64,000 nucleotides of DNA from Kiritimatiellia bacterium (GTDB lineage: Bacteria; Verrucomicrobiota; Kiritimatiellia; UBA8416; JADHWI01), in the NCBI GenBank assembly GCA_016783565.1, contig JADHWI010000006.1, positions 1-64,000 of the forward strand, written 5' to 3'. The notes under the pieces are model-generated. The model was given only the letters and a program-made list of their open reading frames with translations, was not told where the DNA came from and made no database searches. The first letter of the stretch is position 1, and every line of letters begins with the position of its first letter. Made by a program: the position numbers and the translations under genes. Of this stretch, positions 8,989 through 21,325 are shown in pieces.

Positions 8989-10551
8989 TTACCGTCGCGT
9001 ATCGAGGAACTTCTTCCATAGGTCATCACGAATATACAGTTCCATAATAACGTCCGGACGCAACCCGTAGAATTCTGAAATGTATCCCTCTTCAAGATGC
9101 GGAATCAGGCTCTCGGAACATTCCGGGCCTACCACCCATATATCGGGACGGTACTGCAACGGAAGCCCCTCGACGGTATTCCAATATCCCAGATGTTTTT
9201 GATTATATGCACGCAGATACCAGGGAAGCGGCCAGGCGTTGTGCGCCCCCGTCACAGACCAAACCATGATATCGCTCCCCAACCCGGTAGTCTCGGCAAC
9301 ATCCTCAATCCGCTGAATCATACGTAGATAGTCGGTCGTGGTATGCGCATAGACGTAGGGATTACGAATATCGGTAGAATATCGCGATGTCGCACGAACA
9401 GATTGAGCATACAGGTGACCACATGCCGTGGCAAGGAACAGCGTCAGCAATACGCGAAACCACACCGGTCGGAACCGTGACCACAGCCCCCCTATCCCCA
9501 CACCCGCTGCCAGACAAAGCGCATGAACCGACGTCATCATGCACCATGGCGTCTTATATCGAATCACCGAATATATCGTCGCAAGGCTGATTGCGTAAGC
9601 CAGAACAAACCAGATCCCAAATGCTTCTGCACGCTTTCTGTCGCTTACCAAAGCCACAATCAAACCAACAACAGCACCCAGAAGAATCCATAATTCGGTC
9701 CACCAAAGCGGACGTGACGGAGCATTCCCGACCATTATGCAAAGGTAGTAATACCAAGGCTTCGCGTGCTCAGTACCTGTCCCGGAACCGCGTTCAAGAT
9801 AAGTAAAGTAGGTCGCCCATGAATCCACCACGCCGCGCCAATGCATGCCTAACGAAGAAAACAACACAATGGACACCACGGCCGCAATTACGAATGCCAG
9901 CGCCACACTTCGCCATGCTCTGCGCGGCAGCTTCAACCGATGCCCGGACAACAACCACGCGGCGCCCCATGCCAGCCCCCACGACGCAACGCTCAGCACC
10001 CATGTCTCCTTTGTGGCGTGCATAAAGCCCAGCCCCGCACCTGCGAGAATCAACCATCCGGGAGCATGACTCGACATGTACCGCCAGCCACAGACCAACG
10101 TCAACATCCCGAAAAAGACGAGAAAAGATTCCTGAATGAAATATCCTGAGTAATAGACCAGGCAAGGTGATACAGCAACAAATACGGAGGCAGCGGCCAC
10201 CGCCGGCCAACCTATGGCTCCTGCCAACCCCATCGTGAGCAAACCTGTTGCCGCGCCCAGCACGGCAGGCAACCATCGTAGCGTCCACTCGTTGACTTCA
10301 GCCAACGAATCCTGCCCCATAAGACGAGCCACAGGCACCGTAAAATAGTACAAAATAGGCCCATGATGCTCGTGGGGATCATACTCGTAGTGCCCATCCT
10401 CCAACAGCGCACCAAAACGAACAGCCTGGTTCGCCTCGTCATGATGCATGGGACGCACATCCAAATTCTGCGTGCGCAGCACCAATCCAACGATCGCAGT
10501 TACTACGCAAAACAATACCCAAAGATACGTTTTGCTATTGCCTTTCATCAC
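8989..10551 (-). CDS. Agl23-like multi-span membrane protein (TIGR03663 type)
   Basis: 520 residues with about ten or more hydrophobic segments and a GT39/ArnT-like architecture. The first loop has the acidic MHHDEANQA motif (about 35-43, D/E pair expected to act in lipid-linked sugar transfer), followed by HEHHGPILYYFTVP. HATKETW occurs near 175. These features match the family annotated as flippase-activity-associated Agl23. It probably transfers or helps export lipid-linked sugars at the membrane. It converges with 8378-8977, ending 11 bases after that gene. No partner glycosyltransferase is adjacent. Confidence 0.75.
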   Translation of the reverse strand: MMKGNSKTYLWVLFCVVTAIVGLVLRTQNLDVRPMHHDEANQAVRFGALLEDGHYEYDPHEHHGPILYYFTVPVARLMGQDSLAEVNEWTLRWLPAVLGAATGLLTMGLAGAIGWPAVAAASVFVAVSPCLVYYSGYFIQESFLVFFGMLTLVCGWRYMSSHAPGWLILAGAGLGFMHATKETWVLSVASWGLAWGAAWLLSGHRLKLPRRAWRSVALAFVIAAVVSIVLFSSLGMHWRGVVDSWATYFTYLERGSGTGTEHAKPWYYYLCIMVGNAPSRPLWWTELWILLGAVVGLIVALVSDRKRAEAFGIWFVLAYAISLATIYSVIRYKTPWCMMTSVHALCLAAGVGIGGLWSRFRPVWFRVLLTLFLATACGHLYAQSVRATSRYSTDIRNPYVYAHTTTDYLRMIQRIEDVAETTGLGSDIMVWSVTGAHNAWPLPWYLRAYNQKHLGYWNTVEGLPLQYRPDIWVVGPECSESLIPHLEEGYISEFYGLRPDVIMELYIRDDLWKKFLDTRR

Positions 10552-10773: not shown

Positions 10774-11460
10774 TTAGGACGCAGGCTTTCCAAATACTTC
10801 AACTTCAATGTAGTGGTTCATCTCGCCAGCCGTGCTGCCATTGCTGTAGAGACGCACATAACGGCCCTTCTTGCCCTTGGCATCAATCACGCGACCGGAG
10901 TTTGTTTCAATATATTCCTTGTCCTTGCCAATTCCCAATCCCGCAGAATTATCATGATCATTGTTAAAGACTGCTTCAACATCAGTGATGAAATCGGCAT
11001 CCTGACCAATCTGCACAACCATATCGCGATAGACGCGCGCCTGGGCATGATAATGCCAGACCGCGATAGCATAGATCTCGCAGGTCTCGCCTAGATCGAT
11101 CTGCACCCACTGCTGCCCTGGGCCAAATTCTGTGTAACTGCCGTCGCTGCCTTCTTTGTCCCCATCGGTCAACAACTCCATGTCACCAATGATAGGAGCA
11201 GAGTCACTACCGGTTACATCCTTACCCTTGGATACAATGGTTACATCCGCAGGAACCATAATCGCAGGACGCTTCTGCCCTGGTCTGAGCGGGCGTTCAA
11301 GATTCTCAGTCTTGATATTCTTCGGCGTGCCGACGAACATGGGTTTGGGAAGTTCCACCTTCAAAGCCGTCTTCTCTTGTGCGCGCGACATCGTCACACA
11401 CACCATGGCGCATGCCACAATCATTCCTGCCTGTATCATTCTACGCTGCATTGTCTTCAT
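10774..11460 (-). CDS. Exported discoidin-like (F5/8 type C) protein
   Basis: 228 residues with a signal peptide (MIQAGMIVACAMVCVTMSRAQ). Residues ~85-228 form a galactose-binding-like jelly roll: LLTDGDKEGSDGSYTEFGPGQQWVQIDLGETCEIYAIAVWHYH, then VVQIGQDADF and GRYVRLYSNGSTAGEMNHYIEVEVFG at the end. Such domains bind carbohydrate or other envelope ligands; no catalytic module is attached. It is transcribed alone, followed by a strong terminator. The Ala/Pro-rich linker (about 30-80) would hold the domain away from its site of export. Confidence 0.7.
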   Translation of the reverse strand: MKTMQRRMIQAGMIVACAMVCVTMSRAQEKTALKVELPKPMFVGTPKNIKTENLERPLRPGQKRPAIMVPADVTIVSKGKDVTGSDSAPIIGDMELLTDGDKEGSDGSYTEFGPGQQWVQIDLGETCEIYAIAVWHYHAQARVYRDMVVQIGQDADFITDVEAVFNNDHDNSAGLGIGKDKEYIETNSGRVIDAKGKKGRYVRLYSNGSTAGEMNHYIEVEVFGKPAS

Positions 11461-11662: not shown

Positions 11663-12568
11663 TCAGCGTGACTCAAGCCCAATACGGACAGTCGTCTCAT
11701 CCGGCAAAACAAGAAATGCTCCCACGCCAGAGTGCTTCCTGCACACAGCCTCTACCTTCCCGCGACCCATCATCATAAAAGCTGTAGCCAAACCATCGGA
11801 TTTGGCCGCACTCGGGGCCACCGCCCATGCGCCGATATGAGTCGTAGCCGGACGTCCCTTTTGCGGATGGATAATATGCTCGCCTTTCACCTCTTTGCCC
11901 GATCCACTCAACGATCGGTTCTTCAGCGAGATGGTTCCGCATCCTTCGGCCTCGGCCCACTGACCACCGATTCCGATGGGCCATCCCGACCCTTTTTCGG
12001 GTGATGATCCAATGGTCCGCACCGTGCTGCCGCCACCGCTGATAACTGCGTTCGTGATATCCCAGTCATCCAGGATTTCGGCCGCCTTGTCTATGGCGAA
12101 ACCCTTTCCGATGCCACCCAGATCCAACGCACCGGGAGCCCCCAACCACCCCACAGAGAACACCTCGGGGTCCAACACCAACTTATGCAAACCGACCCTG
12201 TCTCGTGCAGCCGCTATTTCCTCAGAGGAAGGGGTCCTGGAGTTCCCTTGGTCATCGCGCCAGCAAGACATGAGAGGGCCAATGGTCGGGTCAAACATGC
12301 CGCCGGTCACACCGTGAACCCACTGCGCCACCTGAATGCATTCGAAGGTATCCACCGTGACACGCACGGACGAATCCGTTTTCAGAAGATTAATCTGGCC
12401 AATATCGCTACCGGCATCGTAGCGGCTGAGCAATCGCTCCAGGTGGTCTACCTCCCGGAACACTGCCGCAGCCGCAGCACGTGCCAACTCCTGATCATCA
12501 CTTGCAATGATCACTTCAAATTCAGTGCTCATTGCCTCATGGGCGAAGCTATATACCGAATTGCTCAT
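11663..12568 (-). CDS. apbE: FAD:protein FMN transferase (ApbE)
   Basis: 301 residues from the ATG at 12568, which overlaps the stop of the cytochrome gene as ATGA. ApbE uses FAD to attach FMN covalently to Thr/Ser of redox proteins. Seen here: AHEAMSTEFEV near the start, FDPTIGPL, the DLGGIGKGFAIDKA nucleotide-binding block, SGGGSTV, and SDGLATAFMMMG in place of the usual AD-x-L-S-TA metal/FAD site. The HIIDP-type motif reads HIIHP. No signal peptide or lipobox is visible, unlike typical periplasmic ApbE. Third gene of the coupled operon. Confidence 0.85.
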   Translation of the reverse strand: MSNSVYSFAHEAMSTEFEVIIASDDQELARAAAAAVFREVDHLERLLSRYDAGSDIGQINLLKTDSSVRVTVDTFECIQVAQWVHGVTGGMFDPTIGPLMSCWRDDQGNSRTPSSEEIAAARDRVGLHKLVLDPEVFSVGWLGAPGALDLGGIGKGFAIDKAAEILDDWDITNAVISGGGSTVRTIGSSPEKGSGWPIGIGGQWAEAEGCGTISLKNRSLSGSGKEVKGEHIIHPQKGRPATTHIGAWAVAPSAAKSDGLATAFMMMGRGKVEAVCRKHSGVGAFLVLPDETTVRIGLESR

Positions 12569-15171
12569 TTTGCCGATTTCAGCGCAGAGCCACACCCTCC
12601 CACAGCCGCTACGATGGTAACGATCGCAGCGAGACGATGTACCACAACGCACAGGTGCTGACCATGTGTGCCAAACAAAGGAAACATTGCCACGAGTACG
12701 CTAAGGATCAGTATGATGCCACCCACAACCAGCATCCAGAAACACCAGCGGCCCAACGCACTTCGCGACGACCTCGCCGTAAGTGCCGCCCAAACGCAAA
12801 GCATCGCGGCATAGGCTGCGCCACAGCCAACATGCGCCAGCAATGCAAAGCCGGAAAGCACCTCGTGCAAAGGCCAACCAAAACCGAAACCGGTCACGGC
12901 CAGCATCACAAGACACAACGCTAACACCAGAACGAGCAATCGCAGAACAACCCTGGGAGCATCCCCCTGCAGTTGTTCCATTGCACGCAACGCGGCAGAA
13001 AGCCCCACGGCAGAAACCACAATGAGCAACAGCCCGGCAAACGCGGCCATGGCCATTTTAAAATATTTACGCACCAGGAAACTGACTCCGAAGAGTTTGT
13101 TGAACCCTTTCTCCGCATCCTGATACTCAACCATCTCCGTCACATCAGCGCGATCAGTCTTGAGCGGTCCTGTTGCCGTGACTGTACCGAAGAAGAAGTC
13201 GGATTTCGGGCTGTGGCAATCTTTACAGCTTCGCGCACCCAATGCCGTCGCAGCCGGACGCACATCATGTCCCAAAGCCCAGGATACCGGCTCGGCAGCC
13301 GAATGATCCTCGGCAGCTAACGTTCCATCCGAAGACAGTGAGAACTTACGTCCATTTGCAATGTAAGCCACCTCCGCATCCAGAGATGCAGCCAACTTCT
13401 TCAACATCAGCACGACTTGCTCTTCATTAAGCGAGAAAGAGGAACCTACCGTATCCTTGACAGATCGGCCCGCAAGCTCGGGCACCAGTGGCAAAAGCGT
13501 TTCGCCGTCCTGCCAGAACCAGCCATCCGCTGCCTCTGTTGCAGCACCAGCAAGATAACCATCTTCGCCACGACTGAAAACTTTACCCCTCGATGCCACA
13601 ACGACCTTCCGACCGGAAGCAATCGTTGACAATGCGTCCATAACACCAAGGATTGCATCCTCAGCATCATAATCAAGTTCCGCCGCATTCACGTCAAAAT
13701 CAGGAATACAGGAAACCACATTCGATTCGGTTCGCCATACCCAGGAGGTTTTCGTATCCACCGGTCCAGCAATGTCCAAGCCACCATCCACATTGCGGCG
13801 GTAAGCCTGCCCCCCAACAACGAAGTTGGCCTCTCCCAATGCGCTGGCTGCCCCATTGAGTGCACCGAGAACTGCTCCAACCTGACGGTCCGCATCCAGC
13901 ACGCCCTTCGCAGCACTCTCAACCTGCTCTAAACCAAGCGGCTTGATTTCTTTGCCCTCAACCATGCCCCAAAAAGCAGGCCACATCATACGCCTGGGTT
14001 CAATGACGCCCGCTTCGTTGCGCACAAAAACAGGTTCCACGATGAACGGGGAATCCGTAAACCACTGGGCACGTCCATACACGCCCAAACGGTTGGCTCG
14101 CGATGTACGGACCACTTTGGGCTCAGAAGCAGGTACCGCTCCTGAATGGCAAGCTGTGCACGACATTTCACGAAAATGAATAGGCGGAATCCCTTTATGG
14201 TGGGCAATGGGAGCGCCAAGCTTTCCAGGCGTATGCCCCTCCTCAAGATGGCAGGCTTCGCAGCTCATAGCTTCGTGCGACACGCCCCTCGTAATGGCAT
14301 GATTGAGCCCGTTGTTGTGACATTGCACACAACGCAAACCACCCGCTCCATGCACATCACCAGCGACGTCTTCTCGCTTCTGGTCCACCTCATACACGGA
14401 ATGACAATGCAAACAGGCCGCATCAGACGGCTTTTCAATCTCAAACCACATGCGGTGCCGACTATCAAAAAGATCGGCATTGTACGCTACCGACGGCGGT
14501 ACGGCATAGATATGGTCATCCGGATTCCCCCCGGCATAAACATTCCACCAGTCCGGCATCCGGGCAGCCATACCACCTACTTCACCAAAGCCGGCAGAGG
14601 CAGTAGCAGCCCATCGAAAATTCTCACGACCGATTTGTTTGGCCCACTCCGACATGTCATGACGTGCACTCCCGTTGTGACACGCAAAACAGTTGATTTC
14701 CAACCCACCGGAAATGGTCCAACGTGCGGAAGGATCATCCATCTGCTCGCCAGGATCAGAAATTCCTCCACCCGGCAAGTGGGAACCAAAGCGCTTCGTG
14801 AAAGACCACGCAGTGAGTCCCGCATCCTCAAGCGCATAGAGACCCGGCCAATCGCGCTTGCCCACGGGCAACTGCGTACCGAACTTCTCATCAAGCATGA
14901 TCCACGGTTCGCCAGGACGACCATCGTCAACACCGGCCGCACCCGCGTTAAAATGCCACCCGGCGTGAATTTTTTCATAGTCATGACACATGCCGCAGGT
15001 CTGCTTGGCAGACATGGGCATAGCATTCTCAACCGTTGAAGCAATCGATACGCCAGCCTCGTCGCGCAGCGGAATGCGATGAACGGGCAACGTACGACTG
15101 CCCCCCCAATGTCCTGCTTGCGCACTAAACGCCAGCCCGGCTACCAGAGTAAGTAGAGCTGTTTTCTTCAC
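12565..15171 (-). CDS. Heptahaem cytochrome c fused to membrane domain
   Basis: 868 residues. The signal peptide is 1-19 (ends AQA). Seven CXXCH haem c sites lie at about 59, 161, 253, 281, 304, 338 and 649; many extra His residues can serve as distal ligands. The region ~345-645 has no haem motifs and looks soluble. The C terminus (about 703-862) holds five hydrophobic segments with His in two of them (LLAHVG, VVVHRLAA), reminiscent of cytochrome b561-type quinone-reactive domains. Likely an electron conduit between periplasmic donors and the membrane quinone pool or an outer acceptor. It overlaps the Gfo/Idh/MocA gene upstream and apbE downstream, both by ATGA. Confidence 0.8.
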   Translation of the reverse strand: MKKTALLTLVAGLAFSAQAGHWGGSRTLPVHRIPLRDEAGVSIASTVENAMPMSAKQTCGMCHDYEKIHAGWHFNAGAAGVDDGRPGEPWIMLDEKFGTQLPVGKRDWPGLYALEDAGLTAWSFTKRFGSHLPGGGISDPGEQMDDPSARWTISGGLEINCFACHNGSARHDMSEWAKQIGRENFRWAATASAGFGEVGGMAARMPDWWNVYAGGNPDDHIYAVPPSVAYNADLFDSRHRMWFEIEKPSDAACLHCHSVYEVDQKREDVAGDVHGAGGLRCVQCHNNGLNHAITRGVSHEAMSCEACHLEEGHTPGKLGAPIAHHKGIPPIHFREMSCTACHSGAVPASEPKVVRTSRANRLGVYGRAQWFTDSPFIVEPVFVRNEAGVIEPRRMMWPAFWGMVEGKEIKPLGLEQVESAAKGVLDADRQVGAVLGALNGAASALGEANFVVGGQAYRRNVDGGLDIAGPVDTKTSWVWRTESNVVSCIPDFDVNAAELDYDAEDAILGVMDALSTIASGRKVVVASRGKVFSRGEDGYLAGAATEAADGWFWQDGETLLPLVPELAGRSVKDTVGSSFSLNEEQVVLMLKKLAASLDAEVAYIANGRKFSLSSDGTLAAEDHSAAEPVSWALGHDVRPAATALGARSCKDCHSPKSDFFFGTVTATGPLKTDRADVTEMVEYQDAEKGFNKLFGVSFLVRKYFKMAMAAFAGLLLIVVSAVGLSAALRAMEQLQGDAPRVVLRLLVLVLALCLVMLAVTGFGFGWPLHEVLSGFALLAHVGCGAAYAAMLCVWAALTARSSRSALGRWCFWMLVVGGIILILSVLVAMFPLFGTHGQHLCVVVHRLAAIVTIVAAVGGCGSALKSAK

Positions 15172-16490
15172 GATTTGAAATCCGTATCTTTGAACTCAAT
15201 ACGCTGCTTGGTTGCTACAGCACGGTTTGCAGCAAGCACTGCAACCGCGGTCTCATAGCCCTTCTCGCCCGGGCAGTTCAACGGTGTACCATGGCGGATT
15301 GCATTGAAGAAGTTCTCCAGATGCGGCTGGTGAGCCGGCTTCGTCAACTCGACCGGCAACGGCCACTTACCCGCTTCTGCCGTCACCCGAACATCCACAG
15401 CCACATTCTTTGTGGTACTCTTCTTTATCGGAGGAGCAGCCTGCGCTTTAATCATATTTTTCGCTACGAACGGCGTCCAATCCGGGGCATGCGCTTCGCG
15501 CATTGCAGTGTTTGCACGTTGTGAGACTTCAGAAATCTCAATCGTGCCATTCTCGCCACGGAAGGCTTCCGAGAAACCAAAATGCGACGTGGTCGTCAGC
15601 GTCTCATAGAATGCACGCCCCACCCCTTGTGGAGTGTCATACTCATAGATGCAAAGAACATTATCATACCACTCATGATGCGGATAATAGTCGACGCCAC
15701 CTGAAGCAACCACAGCCCGCGGATGGGTGCCCCAAATCCACTCAAACAGATCAATCTGATGCGACCCCAGGTCTACGATCGGACCGCCACCGTACTTCTT
15801 GTACCAGCGCCAGTTGCGGAATTCACTCATGGAATTATAGCCGAACTTGGCCAATTTCTCCGCAGAAATCGTATAACGCTCAGGCCACTTCAGATCTTCT
15901 GTCTTGGCGCGATTCCACTGGGCATGCGCGTGAGTCACGCGTCCCAACAAACCTTCTTCACGGATCAATTTCTCAATTGCATGAATATAGCGAGGATTAC
16001 TGCGACGCTGATGACCGATCTGCAGGAGTTTACCCGTATCCCGAGACGTTTTCACCATGCTGGCAGCTTTCTCCAGCGAGTTGGACATTTCTTTCTCGCT
16101 GTACACATGAAGTCCGGCGTTCATGCAGGCATTCGCATGCTCTGCGTGCATCCAGTCAGGAGATGCCACCAGAACGGCATCAAGATCCTTCTCCTGAGCC
16201 AGCAATTCGCGATAGTCCTCGTATACATTCGCCTCATGCCCATACTTGCCTACGTAACGTTTTGCATAACGCTGCGAAAACTCCCAGATGTCACAAACTG
16301 CCTTGAACCGGATACCCGGAATTTTGAGACAAGATTCAATGAGAATACGTCCCTGCGCACCGGCACCAATAATCGCCACATTAAGATCATCGACCCCGCC
16401 CTTGGTCTCACCCAATGCATTCTTCCCAACCGCCAACCCTGCTCCTGCGGCAGAAACGGCCTGCACAAACTCACGCCTGCTTAACTCCAT
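15168..16490 (-). CDS. Tat-exported Gfo/Idh/MocA oxidoreductase
   Basis: 440 residues. The start LSRREFVQAVSAAGAGLAVG carries the twin-arginine pair (R5, R6) and a hydrophobic stretch, so export in folded form with its NAD(P) cofactor is expected. The Rossmann motif is VAIIGAGAQGR (about 38-48). The family lysine loop reads HVYSEKEMSNS. The C-terminal domain has GGGPIVDLGSHQIDLFEW, with the His/Asp block used in sugar binding. Such enzymes oxidise, or epimerise by transient oxidation, sugars and polyols. The two coupled downstream genes suggest its electrons may leave through the cytochrome. A start at MELSRREF with nothing else upstream favours 16490. Confidence 0.85.
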   Translation of the reverse strand: MELSRREFVQAVSAAGAGLAVGKNALGETKGGVDDLNVAIIGAGAQGRILIESCLKIPGIRFKAVCDIWEFSQRYAKRYVGKYGHEANVYEDYRELLAQEKDLDAVLVASPDWMHAEHANACMNAGLHVYSEKEMSNSLEKAASMVKTSRDTGKLLQIGHQRRSNPRYIHAIEKLIREEGLLGRVTHAHAQWNRAKTEDLKWPERYTISAEKLAKFGYNSMSEFRNWRWYKKYGGGPIVDLGSHQIDLFEWIWGTHPRAVVASGGVDYYPHHEWYDNVLCIYEYDTPQGVGRAFYETLTTTSHFGFSEAFRGENGTIEISEVSQRANTAMREAHAPDWTPFVAKNMIKAQAAPPIKKSTTKNVAVDVRVTAEAGKWPLPVELTKPAHQPHLENFFNAIRHGTPLNCPGEKGYETAVAVLAANRAVATKQRIEFKDTDFKS

Positions 16491-18231: not shown

Positions 18232-19176
18232 ATGGCGATGGAATTTGAAAAAACACTGCTTGAAACGGAACAGAAAATTGCCGAGCTACAGGCACTGGCA
18301 GAAAAAAAGAACGTTAATTTTGGAACAGAACTAGCACAACTCAAGAGAAAGAAGACATCTCTGATGAAGTCAACATACGCGAAACTGACGCCATGGGACA
18401 CGGTCCAGGTTGCCCGACATAATGAGCGACCACTGATCCGCGACTACATCAACGGCATGTGCGATGAATTTCTTGAATTACGCGGCGACCGATGCTTCGG
18501 CGACGATCAAGGCATTATCGGTGGCTTTGCAAAAATAGATGAACGACGCGTCATGCTCATTGGGCATCAAAAGGGAAAGACAACCGAAGATAACATCAAA
18601 TCCAACTTCGGGATGGCCAACCCGGAGGGCTATCGCAAGGCGCTTCGCCTGATGAAATTGGCCGAAAAATTTAGAATTCCCGTCGTGTGCCTCATTGATA
18701 CCCCAGGTGCGTATCCGGGCTTGGAAGCCGAGGCACGCGGGCAGGCTCAGGCCATTGCACAGAATCTGACAGAAATGTCACGACTCGCAACCCCCATCAT
18801 CGTGATCGTCACCGGCGAAGGTGGCAGCGGCGGTGCCATTGGAATTGGCGTTGGGGATGTAGTGATGATGCTTGCCAATTCTGTGTACTCCGTGATTTCT
18901 CCCGAAGGCTGCGCTTCCATTCTGTGGCGCGATGGCACCAAGGCCCCTATCGCAGCGGATGCCCTGAAGATCACGGCTGATTCCTTACTCAAACTTGGCA
19001 TCATTGATGAAATCATTCCGGAACCGATCGGTGGTGCTCATCGAAACTACACCGAGACGCTCCAATCGGTGAAGGATGCCATCCTCAAGAATATCGAAAG
19101 ACTACGCAAAACATCTCGTAAGCGTCTCGTTGAAAAACGTTTCGCGAAATATGCGGCGATGGGACGCTATTATTAA
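18232..19176 (+). CDS. accA: Acetyl-CoA carboxylase carboxyltransferase, alpha subunit
   Basis: 314 residues, full length for AccA, the partner of AccD. The coiled N terminus (FEKTLLETEQKIAELQALAEKKN) precedes the crotonase-like core with GDRCFGDDQGIIGG, GHQKGK, IDTPGAYPGLEAEARGQAQAIA, the oxyanion-hole segment GEGGSGGAIGIGVGD, and SPEGCASILWRD. An AGGAG Shine-Dalgarno lies shortly before the ATG. It sits 34 bases upstream of the carboxyltransferase/biotin-carrier fusion. No biotin carboxylase (accC) occurs in the window. Confidence 0.95.
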   Translation: MAMEFEKTLLETEQKIAELQALAEKKNVNFGTELAQLKRKKTSLMKSTYAKLTPWDTVQVARHNERPLIRDYINGMCDEFLELRGDRCFGDDQGIIGGFAKIDERRVMLIGHQKGKTTEDNIKSNFGMANPEGYRKALRLMKLAEKFRIPVVCLIDTPGAYPGLEAEARGQAQAIAQNLTEMSRLATPIIVIVTGEGGSGGAIGIGVGDVVMMLANSVYSVISPEGCASILWRDGTKAPIAADALKITADSLLKLGIIDEIIPEPIGGAHRNYTETLQSVKDAILKNIERLRKTSRKRLVEKRFAKYAAMGRYY

Positions 19177-19210
19177 GTCAGAACATAACACCAGCATTAG
19201 GATTACTATT

Positions 19211-21325
19211 ATGGCGAAAAAGACAGCAAAGAAGACAACGGCCCGCAAGGCGCCAAAAACAACAAAGAAAACGGTAGCCAAAAAGGCACCCGCTACCCGA
19301 AAACGTGCAACCATGACATCCAAAAAAGCGACAAAAAAGACAGTGTCACGAAAGAAGGCCGTGCGGAAACCCACACGCGTTTCCGTAAAGAGCGAAGCAC
19401 CGGCCAAACTGAAAAACCGTAAGCCTTTGCGCATTACCGATACCACACTACGCGATGCGCACCAGTCGCTGTGGGCCACCCGCATGCGCACCAAAGATAT
19501 CATCGATATTATCGATGTCATCGACTCCGCCGGATACTATTCCCTCGAGGTCTGGGGCGGCGCCACATTTGACGTCTGCATGCGTTTCCTCCGTGAAAAC
19601 CCATGGGAACGCCTGCGCCAGATCAAATCCCACGCAAAAAAAACACCATTACAAATGCTCCTGCGAGGCCAGAATGTCCTCGGATACAAAAACTACCCGG
19701 ATGATCTTCTGGATCGCTTTGTTGAGCTGGCCTGTCTTAATGGCGTCGACATCTTCAGGATCTTCGATGCCCTGAACGATAACCGTAACCTGGAATCGGC
19801 CATCAAGAGCGTTAAACGCCATGGTGGGCACGCACAGGGAACCATCTGCTACACCATCAGCCCCGTTCACACAGTTGATGAGTACGTACGCATTGCCAAA
19901 GAACAGGTCCAGATGGGTATCGATTCCCTTGCCATCAAGGACATGGCCGGTATTCTCTCACCCATTTCCGCAGAACACTTAATTAAAGCGCTCGCCGCCA
20001 ACATCAACGTGCCGATCCAAGTCCACACGCACGCCACAAGCGGCATGGGCACTGCGACGTATGTAGAAGCCGTACGCGCCGGTGCCGGTGCTATTGATTG
20101 CGCCATCTCGGTGATGTCCTCATCCTCGTCTCAGCCTCCGGTTGAGACCATGCTGGCCATCTTCGATGAAACCGACTATCACGCCAATCTGGATATCAGC
20201 GCCCTGCGGAAGATCTGCAAATACTTCGAAGGCCTCGCGCCCCATCGCCGCTTGAGCCACGCACCGCTCAATCCGATTGATCCCGAGATTCTGATTCATC
20301 ACATTCCAGGCGGAATGATCTCGAATCTGCGCTCTCAACTCGATCAGCAAGGCGCTCTGGATAAACTATCCGAGGTGATGGCAGAAGTTCCGCGCGTACG
20401 CAAGGACATGGGATATCCTCCGCTGGTAACACCAACCAGCCAGATCGTGGGCGTTCAGGCCGTACTGAACGTCATTGCCGGCAAACGCTATGAGCTGATC
20501 ACAGAGGAAACCAAGAACTACGTTCGCGGCCTTTACGGTCACTCTCCAGCACCACTGGATGCCAAGATCCAAAAGAAAATCCTCGGCAAGGACAAGCCCA
20601 TGACGGGGCGTCCGGCAGACCTGCTAAAACCCATGCTCCCCACCGCAACAAATGACGTAGACGCAAAGCTGATCCAGGGAGAAGAAGACATCATTTCCTA
20701 CTGCCTCTTCCCGGAGGTGGCTCTGGACTTCTTCAAATGGCGGGCACTACCGTTCGAAGAAAGACCGTCCCCCCCGGCGGATCTTGAGCGAAAGAAGGAC
20801 GAAAGACCTGATACGCCGGCTCCAGCTCCGTTGCCGGCACCACCGCAGCCGTTCCTGGCCGACACGGACTACCAGGAGATCCAGGGCTTGCTGGACAAGG
20901 TCAACACGCTGGGCTTTTCAGAGGTAACAATCCGACGCAACGACTTGAACCTGAGTCTCAAATCCTCCGGTGCCAGTACGTCTCACGTTCCCGTCGAAAA
21001 AACAGCCGAGCCTTCTGAAACCGCAACACCGATCGCGGCACCAGAAGCACCAAAAGCACCTGCAGCGGCTGACGAGGGTACACCCGACGGCCCGACCATT
21101 GATTCACCGCTCACCGGCACGTTCTACCGCTCGGCAGAACCCGGGAAGCCCTCATTAAAAGACGAGGGCGACAAAGTAAAGGCAGGAGAGTCTGTCTGCA
21201 TCGTGGAGGCCATGAAGCTCTTCAACGAAATCAAAGCTCCGTCAAACTGCAAACTCGTCAAGTTCCTCGCAGAACACGGCGATCATGTAGAAAAGGGGCA
21301 GCCGCTCGTCGTCATCAAAGAGTAA
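19211..21325 (+). CDS. OadA-type carboxyltransferase fused to AccB-type biotin carrier
   Basis: 704 residues from the ATG at 19211; the longer frame to 19076 overlaps accA and is unlikely. Residues 1-~65 are a Lys/Ala/Thr-rich, histone-H1-like tail. Residues ~70-540 form a complete pyruvate carboxylase subunit B / oxaloacetate decarboxylase alpha domain: RITDTTLRDAHQSLWATRM, IKDMAG with the carbamylated Lys, and HTHATSGMG with metal His pair. Residues ~585-704 resemble AccB (DYQEIQGLLDKVNTLGFSEV, Pro/Ala linker, SPLTGTFYRSAEPGKPS), with the biotinylation site EAMKLFNE at Lys669. It could carboxylate or decarboxylate pyruvate/oxaloacetate and also present carboxybiotin to AccAD. Confidence 0.9.
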   Translation: MAKKTAKKTTARKAPKTTKKTVAKKAPATRKRATMTSKKATKKTVSRKKAVRKPTRVSVKSEAPAKLKNRKPLRITDTTLRDAHQSLWATRMRTKDIIDIIDVIDSAGYYSLEVWGGATFDVCMRFLRENPWERLRQIKSHAKKTPLQMLLRGQNVLGYKNYPDDLLDRFVELACLNGVDIFRIFDALNDNRNLESAIKSVKRHGGHAQGTICYTISPVHTVDEYVRIAKEQVQMGIDSLAIKDMAGILSPISAEHLIKALAANINVPIQVHTHATSGMGTATYVEAVRAGAGAIDCAISVMSSSSSQPPVETMLAIFDETDYHANLDISALRKICKYFEGLAPHRRLSHAPLNPIDPEILIHHIPGGMISNLRSQLDQQGALDKLSEVMAEVPRVRKDMGYPPLVTPTSQIVGVQAVLNVIAGKRYELITEETKNYVRGLYGHSPAPLDAKIQKKILGKDKPMTGRPADLLKPMLPTATNDVDAKLIQGEEDIISYCLFPEVALDFFKWRALPFEERPSPPADLERKKDERPDTPAPAPLPAPPQPFLADTDYQEIQGLLDKVNTLGFSEVTIRRNDLNLSLKSSGASTSHVPVEKTAEPSETATPIAAPEAPKAPAAADEGTPDGPTIDSPLTGTFYRSAEPGKPSLKDEGDKVKAGESVCIVEAMKLFNEIKAPSNCKLVKFLAEHGDHVEKGQPLVVIKE

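Follow-up and report, generated by a model that had tools for sequence, protein, structure and literature searches.

What can an oxidoreductase with an export signal, a c-type cytochrome with seven haems, and an ApbE-family flavin transferase have to do with one another when their genes overlap on the same strand? The question is raised by a locus in a 64,000-nucleotide stretch of DNA from a Kiritimatiellia bacterium (GenBank assembly GCA_016783565.1, contig JADHWI010000006.1, positions 1 to 64,000; hereafter the window), in which three overlapping minus-strand genes run from a twin-arginine translocation (Tat)-type enzyme of the Gfo/Idh/MocA family (hereafter Gfo) through the seven-haem cytochrome to ApbE. 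Comparative data indicate that these genes, with two further ones downstream, almost certainly work together as a real and conserved system. The favored account, to which a probability of about one half is given, is a periplasmic sugar-dehydrogenase system in which the electrons of Gfo are passed to the cytochrome. The genes and overlaps of the locus are as follows.

15168..16490, minus strand: Gfo/Idh/MocA oxidoreductase of 440 amino acids with the Tat signal SRREFVQ (Pfam, Tat signal model)
15168..15171, minus strand: GTGA stop/start overlap of Gfo and cytochrome
12565..15171, minus strand: seven-haem c-type cytochrome of 868 amino acids, with a GTG start, a signal peptide, a repeat domain, and a five-helix membrane end
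12565..12568, minus strand: ATGA stop/start overlap of cytochrome and ApbE
11663..12568, minus strand: ApbE-family protein of 301 amino acids, with an ATG start and without a signal peptide (Pfam)
10774..11460, minus strand: secreted F5/8 type C protein (F5/8C; NedA-like, galactose-binding), a conserved set member (library match, conservation)
8989..10551, minus strand: polytopic membrane protein of PMT/GT-C type, TIGR03663 (Agl23), a conserved set member (library match, conservation)

Conservation of the gene set

A scan of 84,980 species genomes recovered 133 relatives of the cytochrome, and the best 80 of these 133 were analyzed as loci, using profiles built from the first four to six members and run on all reading frames. 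The Gfo subfamily (called in the loci at ≥170 bits, where full-length members score at least 440 and other Gfo genes at most 134) adjoins the cytochrome in 74 of the 80 loci, and in all 66 of those with at least 1.4 kb of sequence on that side. ApbE was found in 55 of the 80 loci, F5/8C in 51, and Agl23 in 35, many loci ending at contig ends; among the 51 loci with at least 1.4 kb to the left and 1.5 kb to the right, the counts are 51 for Gfo, 39 for ApbE, 41 for F5/8C, and 28 for Agl23. The cytochrome occurs in Kiritimatiellales and Pontiella, other Verrucomicrobiota, Lentisphaerota, Planctomycetota, Aminicenantes, and Acidobacteria, as well as in Omnitrophota, KSB1, BRC1, one Nitrospiraceae, and one Deferribacteres record (many records are metagenome bins), and Pontiella sulfatireligans carries the set (locus L031). 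The order of the genes is Gfo-cytochrome-ApbE-F5/8C-Agl23 in most Kiritimatiellota and Aminicenantes loci, Gfo-cytochrome-membrane subunit-...-F5/8C-Agl23-ApbE in several Planctomycetota, and F5/8C-Agl23-ApbE-Gfo-cytochrome in Verrucomicrobiales-type records. Because the set is kept through such permutations between phyla, it is very likely functional.

Co-occurrence was also counted at the class level in 345 genomes, with Gfo called at E 1e-100 and the top four candidates per genome scored. The cytochrome was found in 71 genomes and Gfo in 85; both are present in 68, the cytochrome alone in 3, and Gfo alone in 17. Cytochrome genomes thus hold Gfo in 68 of 71 cases, versus 17 of 274 others (Fisher p 1e-51, with no correction for kinship). 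The best Gfo shares a contig with the cytochrome in 44 of the 71, the other 27 comprising the 3 genomes without Gfo at the threshold and 24 with the two genes on different contigs, some of which may be assembly breaks. The original prediction, made from the window's sequence, had proposed conservation of the trio across genomes as its test and rare co-occurrence of the orthologues as the outcome that would speak against it; the trio proved conserved, and that outcome did not occur. Universal adjacency of the trio was rejected. In a more distant clade of family f48 the cytochrome and Gfo sit at separate loci: seven f48 cytochrome loci with ample flanks have no subfamily Gfo adjoining (five of the seven have ApbE), and seven f48 Gfo loci showed no other set member in the stretch fetched. 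At one f48 locus (L113, 3700-10920; L107 and L108 are similar), a gene for an AMP-binding enzyme comes after the unlinked cytochrome-ApbE pair, with MotA/ExbB-type and lyase genes near. The set is apparently undescribed in the papers searched, although this is limited evidence, since the slashed name Gfo/Idh/MocA was unsearchable and its spaced form did not occur.

All 17 genomes with Gfo alone carry it together with F5/8C (17 of 17 loci). Agl23 is present in 7 of these cytochrome-less loci and ApbE in 5, and in 12 a small DoxX/MauE-like membrane protein lies by Gfo (e.g., L119 7424-7960 and L121 7171-7698; ten further loci). None of the 80 cytochrome loci showed this protein, which in one of two tested copies matches the MauE Pfam family at E 6e-4, below the cut-off. 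In a Gfo tree of 103 rows made with a quick method, the subfamily is monophyletic with respect to eight other Gfo rows (support 100), and 16 of the 17 rows from cytochrome-less loci cluster together (support 97), nested between cytochrome-linked groups, the 17th being long-branched and placed elsewhere. Because of this nesting, the constant presence of F5/8C, and the frequency of the DoxX-like protein, Gfo and F5/8C look like the core of the system, and the cytochrome and the DoxX-like protein look like exchangeable membrane partners.

Within the window, reading frames and Pfam matches bear out the coordinates and families predicted for the trio. Of the two ATGA overlaps described there, that between cytochrome and ApbE stands, while that between Gfo and cytochrome is GTGA because the cytochrome starts with GTG. 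The trio is likewise real, but the three-gene view overlooked F5/8C, which lies ~200 bases downstream of ApbE on the same strand and has a likely signal peptide (judged by eye), and the Agl23-type gene ~220 bases further, both of which recur with the trio. Contig C63 of the same genome (2.4 Mb, 84.8% complete) carries another trio, again of Gfo, ApbE, and a seven-haem cytochrome (44% identical); F5/8C and Agl23-type genes were not found by it in the stretch fetched. The Gfo of the C63 trio sits in a different clade of the tree, and the second trio is therefore not a recent duplicate.

A proposed coupling of enzyme and cytochrome

The Rossmann and C-terminal domains of the window Gfo both score above their Pfam cut-offs (PF01408, 63.6 bits against 24, E 3.6e-17; PF22725, 55.4 against 27; PF02894, 46.7 against 22.9), placing it in the Gfo/Idh/MocA family. 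The family is marked by a GxGxxG motif and by a catalytic Lys and DxGxH, and the corresponding motifs are kept as GAGAQG, the Lys within EKEMSN, and a nearly invariant DLGSHQID; the subfamily is nonetheless distinct (EKEMSN replaces EKP, GGGPIVDLGSHQID). Its nearest relatives of solved structure are DgpA and glucose-fructose oxidoreductase (GFOR). Although the N-terminal part matches NCBIfam NF058561 (BT_2158 glycoside 3-dehydrogenase) at 91 bits, this is far below the cut-off of 750, and Gfo is therefore not a member of that family. A first look found dozens to more than 100 Gfo-like candidates per genome in some genomes. With 18.1 bits in the Tat signal model against a cut-off of 16.7, export of the window Gfo is probable, and 58 of 75 Gfo rows carry an RRxF-type motif (6 rows were unreadable, and an apparent RRxF in L024, a chance upstream match, is not counted among the 58).

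The description of the second gene as a seven-haem cytochrome c with a five-helix membrane end was accurate, exactly seven CxxCH motifs being counted and five helices appearing in the model (residues 688-733, 738-763, 774-798, 805-829, and 835-867). It is divided as follows.

13972..15114, minus strand: haem domain, residues 20-400, with haems 1-6; haem 7 belongs to the CxxCH at residues 649-653
13276..14043, minus strand: beta-rich repeat domain between haem 6 and haem 7, residues 377-632 (model, with a predicted local distance difference test score (pLDDT) mostly near 90)
12571..13110, minus strand: five-helix membrane end, residues 688-867, with near-invariant H780 and H845 (model, alignment)

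In an alignment of 79 cytochromes (77 from fetched loci plus both copies of the window genome), the seven motif histidines and exactly seven others (31, 73, 274, 291, 325, 332, and 635) are invariant in filled columns (74 to 79 rows; 75 to 79 for the seven others), and the remaining histidines of the haem region are all variable. Since each haem has one invariant second histidine, the simple reading of the alignment is that all seven are bis-histidine, low-spin haems and that the protein would serve electron transfer, as a conduit, and not catalysis. In the membrane part, compared over 30 fused and 28 separate rows, H780 is kept in 56 of 58 and H845 in 58 of 58, along with a Gln (56), a Trp (58), and a Gly (58), and the two retained histidines suggest one b haem in the bundle. 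This part is a separate, four-helix gene in genome G012 and many other relatives; the G012 subunit gives a weak match to cytochrome b561/Ni_hydr_CYTB (PF01292, 23.1 against a cut-off of 30.1), and the window cytochrome has no PF01292 match in Pfam. The pLDDT is 69 for the whole cytochrome and 74.5 for the haem domain (residues 20-405). Foldseek with both cytochrome models gave no match at E 0.001, an absence that is not informative about families, and with VIA-align the sole chain with a Z of at least 2 was the octahaem cytochrome 1sp3, a weak match (Z 4.6, 170 residues, root-mean-square deviation 4.6).

In the proposed mechanism, Gfo would fold in the cytoplasm with NAD bound, would presumably keep it during Tat export, and outside the cytoplasm would oxidize a hydroxyl of a sugar or glycoside, leaving NADH in the enzyme. 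Electrons would be handed to the cytochrome, rather than as hydride to a second sugar as in GFOR, and would run through the seven bis-histidine c haems to the b haem of the membrane bundle, and from there to quinone. Docking of glycan or enzyme is the probable role of the F5/8C protein, and the Agl23-type protein and ApbE would be accessory; a flavin could bridge the two-electron hydride and the one-electron haems, and ApbE may enter here, though an attachment site is not visible. The substrate would be a sugar or glycoside, common neighbors of the set being sugar isomerases, sugar kinases, sulfatases, transporters, and 3-keto-disaccharide hydrolase domains (the last in 22 of the 80 loci); oxidation at position 3 is a guess. 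Exported Gfo enzymes are usually considered redox-neutral or self-recycling, and the set suggests electron extraction from sugars outside the cytoplasm as a mode not yet known for the family. A dedicated conduit would put some sugar oxidation outside the cytoplasm, feeding membrane energy metabolism, in organisms often called fermenters, and it can be tested since the set is present in cultured Pontiella and spans Kiritimatiellota and Planctomycetota to Acidobacteria and Omnitrophota records.

The electron acceptor in the membrane is probably a quinone, for which there are indirect signs both ways. An ETF-QO (electron transfer flavoprotein-quinone oxidoreductase) with a ubiquinone-binding domain, assigned by clustering with one member checked against Pfam, lies directly upstream of Gfo in six loci (L034, L042, L051, L053, L057, and L058), preceded in three of the six by EtfB and a ferredoxin-domain EtfA. 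The window genome encodes MqnA/MqnD, which are enriched among cytochrome genomes (22 of 71 versus 25 of 274 others). In G012 (L014 11342-13225), genes for a UbiA prenyltransferase and a polyprenyl synthase stand between ApbE and F5/8C; neither MqnA/D nor a MenD over the cut-off was found in this genome, and quinone salvage is possible in genomes of its kind. UbiA as such was discarded as a quinone indicator, being present in 34 of 34 genomes and thus uninformative. In two isolates of Pontiella, menaquinones were measured and c cytochromes are encoded (PMC7356697).

Several observations weigh against a sugar dehydrogenase that feeds the quinone pool. The direction of electron flow is inferred, and no cofactor that would convert two-electron to one-electron transfer was seen. 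Eleven Gfo rows, all from one Pontiella-type clade that is sister to the window Gfo, carry NR or KR (nine classed by script, L019 and L024 read by eye); because RR is replaced, Tat export is doubtful in this clade, and the predicted export thus holds for most lineages (the 58 readable rows) but not for the one in which an arginine was lost. Loss of the Tat machinery was rejected as the cause, as TatC was found in 32 of 32 genomes tested. The 3-keto-disaccharide hydrolase lies upstream of the set Gfo in 14 of 64 cases, versus 5 of 38 for other Gfo genes in the same loci (p 0.31); since it is not enriched, the link to oxidation at position 3 is not specific, and the hydrolase was dropped as proof of the reaction. 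MqnA/D occur in only the 22 of 71 cytochrome genomes and are absent from most of one family, and MenD exceeded the cut-off in just 2 of 20 tested cytochrome genomes lacking MqnA/D, leaving 18 in which no known menaquinone route was found. Finally, both Pontiella strains are reported to grow only fermentatively (PMC7356697).

Alternative explanations and the role of ApbE

Gfo might instead be redox-neutral (an epimerase or an NAD-recycling glycosidase like GH109), with the cytochrome re-oxidizing, by way of rescue, only those enzyme molecules from which the ketone intermediate has escaped. Known exported Gfo enzymes close their redox cycle internally, GFOR (one of the nearest relatives of solved structure) being an example, and 17 of the 85 Gfo genomes do without the cytochrome; yet the cytochrome is nearly always kept with the Gfo subfamily, even when unlinked, and another membrane protein replaces it in 12 of the 17 cytochrome-less loci. 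Because the cytochrome is either co-kept or replaced, a continuous need is suggested rather than one for rescue, and a redox-neutral enzyme is considered unlikely. A low probability is also given to reverse flow, in which electrons from quinol or electron transfer flavoprotein (ETF) would pass through the cytochrome to Gfo and reduce a keto sugar outside the cytoplasm. The ETF and ETF-QO genes directly upstream in some loci would fit such a direction, as would multihaem cytochromes with a b-haem end that carry electrons outward (e.g., CbcL of Geobacter), but reduction of bound NAD+ by menaquinol is uphill, and hosts that degrade polysaccharides presumably have sugar to oxidize. Synthesis or modification of surface glycans, with the redox pair editing an exopolysaccharide or glycolipid, could draw on the Agl23-type protein (35 of 80 loci), F5/8C (51 of 80), and the GT2 genes of 11 loci, and Pontiella makes sulfated exopolymers (PMC7356697); catabolic neighbors (TIM-barrel isomerases, 3-keto hydrolases, sugar kinases, and transporters) are also common, however, and glycan editing appears improbable. 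That the genes are neighbors without a shared function, by operon hitch-hiking, is just possible but scarcely credible, given a gene order permuted across phyla, co-retention when unlinked, and a second diverged copy in the same genome, and it is refuted for practical purposes by the 66 of 66 adjacent loci and the 68 of 71 co-occurring genomes.

The inference drawn from the presence of ApbE is weak. The protein belongs to the FAD:protein FMN (flavin mononucleotide) transferases by its Pfam match (192 bits, E 1.8e-56, spanning 1-265 of 266), and the usual motifs DlGGigKG, H-i-i-dP, and aDaLsT are invariant or nearly so in alignments of 5 and 45 rows (the latter including two non-cluster members, the first copy of L034 and L051), with HIIHP and SDGLAT as the variants in the window. 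The two operon copies of the window genome score 192 and 148 bits, versus 272 for a third copy. No hydrophobic N-terminal stretch was seen in any cluster ApbE whose N-terminus was readable, a few not being located. Of 7 loci without Gfo, 5 keep ApbE with the cytochrome, and of 17 without the cytochrome, 5 keep it with Gfo. In G010, in G026, and in much of the Pontiella-type clade, ~26 residues of ApbE are missing between the GAFD and DLGG motifs; these shorter forms (L020, L021, L023, L025, L027, L030, L031, L050, and L054) fall mostly in the clade in which the twin arginine of Gfo is lost.

The presence of ApbE had been taken to imply a covalently flavinylated component, an implication that the data do not support. 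No conserved [ST]GA[ST] motif was found in six set-family alignments, and scans for [ST][GSA]A[ST] and for conserved Ser/Thr also fit nothing; the strict motif occurs in 3 of 79 cytochromes, 0 of 28 separate membrane subunits, 0 of 35 F5/8C proteins, 0 of 35 Agl23 proteins, and 1 of 79 Gfo proteins, never at a conserved column. Measured by the features of extracytosolic flavinylation in PMC8238504, ApbE has no signal peptide and its partners have no [ST]GA[ST]; F5/8C and the cytochrome are exported and could at most be candidate ApbE substrates. Of 31 good cytochrome genomes, 29 do contain FMN-binding domain (FMN_bind) proteins, for which a search had been proposed. A further ApbE that scores higher (≥245 bits) is, however, encoded in at least 21 of the 31, so that the FMN_bind proteins need not be targets of the cluster ApbE. 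In G012 the cluster ApbE is the only one found, and no FMN_bind protein was detected in G012 or G201.

That ApbE flavinylates some member of the set is accordingly doubtful, and that a flavin added by it sits on the route of the electrons, bound at a novel type of site, is more doubtful still. In its fullest form, a long shot, cytoplasmic ApbE would flavinylate the Tat-bound Gfo or another member at a site other than [ST]GA[ST], and electrons would go from sugar to bound NAD, covalent FMN, and haem, with an exchangeable acceptor (cytochrome or DoxX/MauE-like protein). If true, such an enzyme would represent a class of periplasmic nicotinamide dehydrogenase not seen before, and ApbE would have a substrate of a new kind; the set also points to a cytoplasmic class of ApbE. 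ApbE proteins without signal peptides were set aside by the authors of PMC8238504, and this filter may be the reason that the set went unreported there.

Neighboring genes and known systems

Sulfatase and gluconolactonase-like genes are also present in the window, and at 19076-21325 on the plus strand a pyruvate carboxylase/oxaloacetate decarboxylase-like protein (by eye) has a Lys/Ala/Thr-rich, histone-H1-like stretch before its catalytic part. Near the C63 trio (L013 642-3443, plus strand), a protein with two CxxCH motifs matches the hydrazine synthase alpha middle domain (PF18582).

Among known systems, the ApbE-dependent flavinylation electron-transfer systems are alike in having ApbE beside membrane cytochromes, and differ (PMC8238504, PMC11334425) from a set whose ApbE has no signal peptide and in which no [ST]GA[ST] substrate was seen. 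The octahaem cytochrome of Shewanella oneidensis (1sp3) is a weak fold match to the seven-haem protein, in which no open catalytic haem is expected because each haem has an invariant second histidine. The CbcL-type inner-membrane cytochromes of Geobacter have a comparable architecture, with multiple c haems on the periplasmic side joined to a b-type bundle in the membrane; the set cytochrome has seven haems, a beta-repeat insert, only two conserved membrane histidines, and a Gfo partner. On the side of the enzyme, the BT_2158 family matches the N-terminal part of Gfo without including it, and GFOR of Zymomonas and DgpA have the same fold and are the best solved-structure matches. GFOR is Tat-exported and holds its NADP tightly. 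Unlike the set, GFOR and DgpA close their cycle with a second sugar and have no dedicated cytochrome. In the lactose/glucoside 3-dehydrogenase LacABC, which occurs with a DUF1080 hydrolase, the catalytic subunit is an FAD-dependent (GMC) enzyme with a small cytochrome, whereas the set has Gfo, seven c haems, and a b-haem-like bundle. LacABC of Caulobacter and others is nevertheless alike in its membrane-bound periplasmic glycoside oxidation and in the 3-keto hydrolases and sugar epimerases encoded nearby (PMC9007349).

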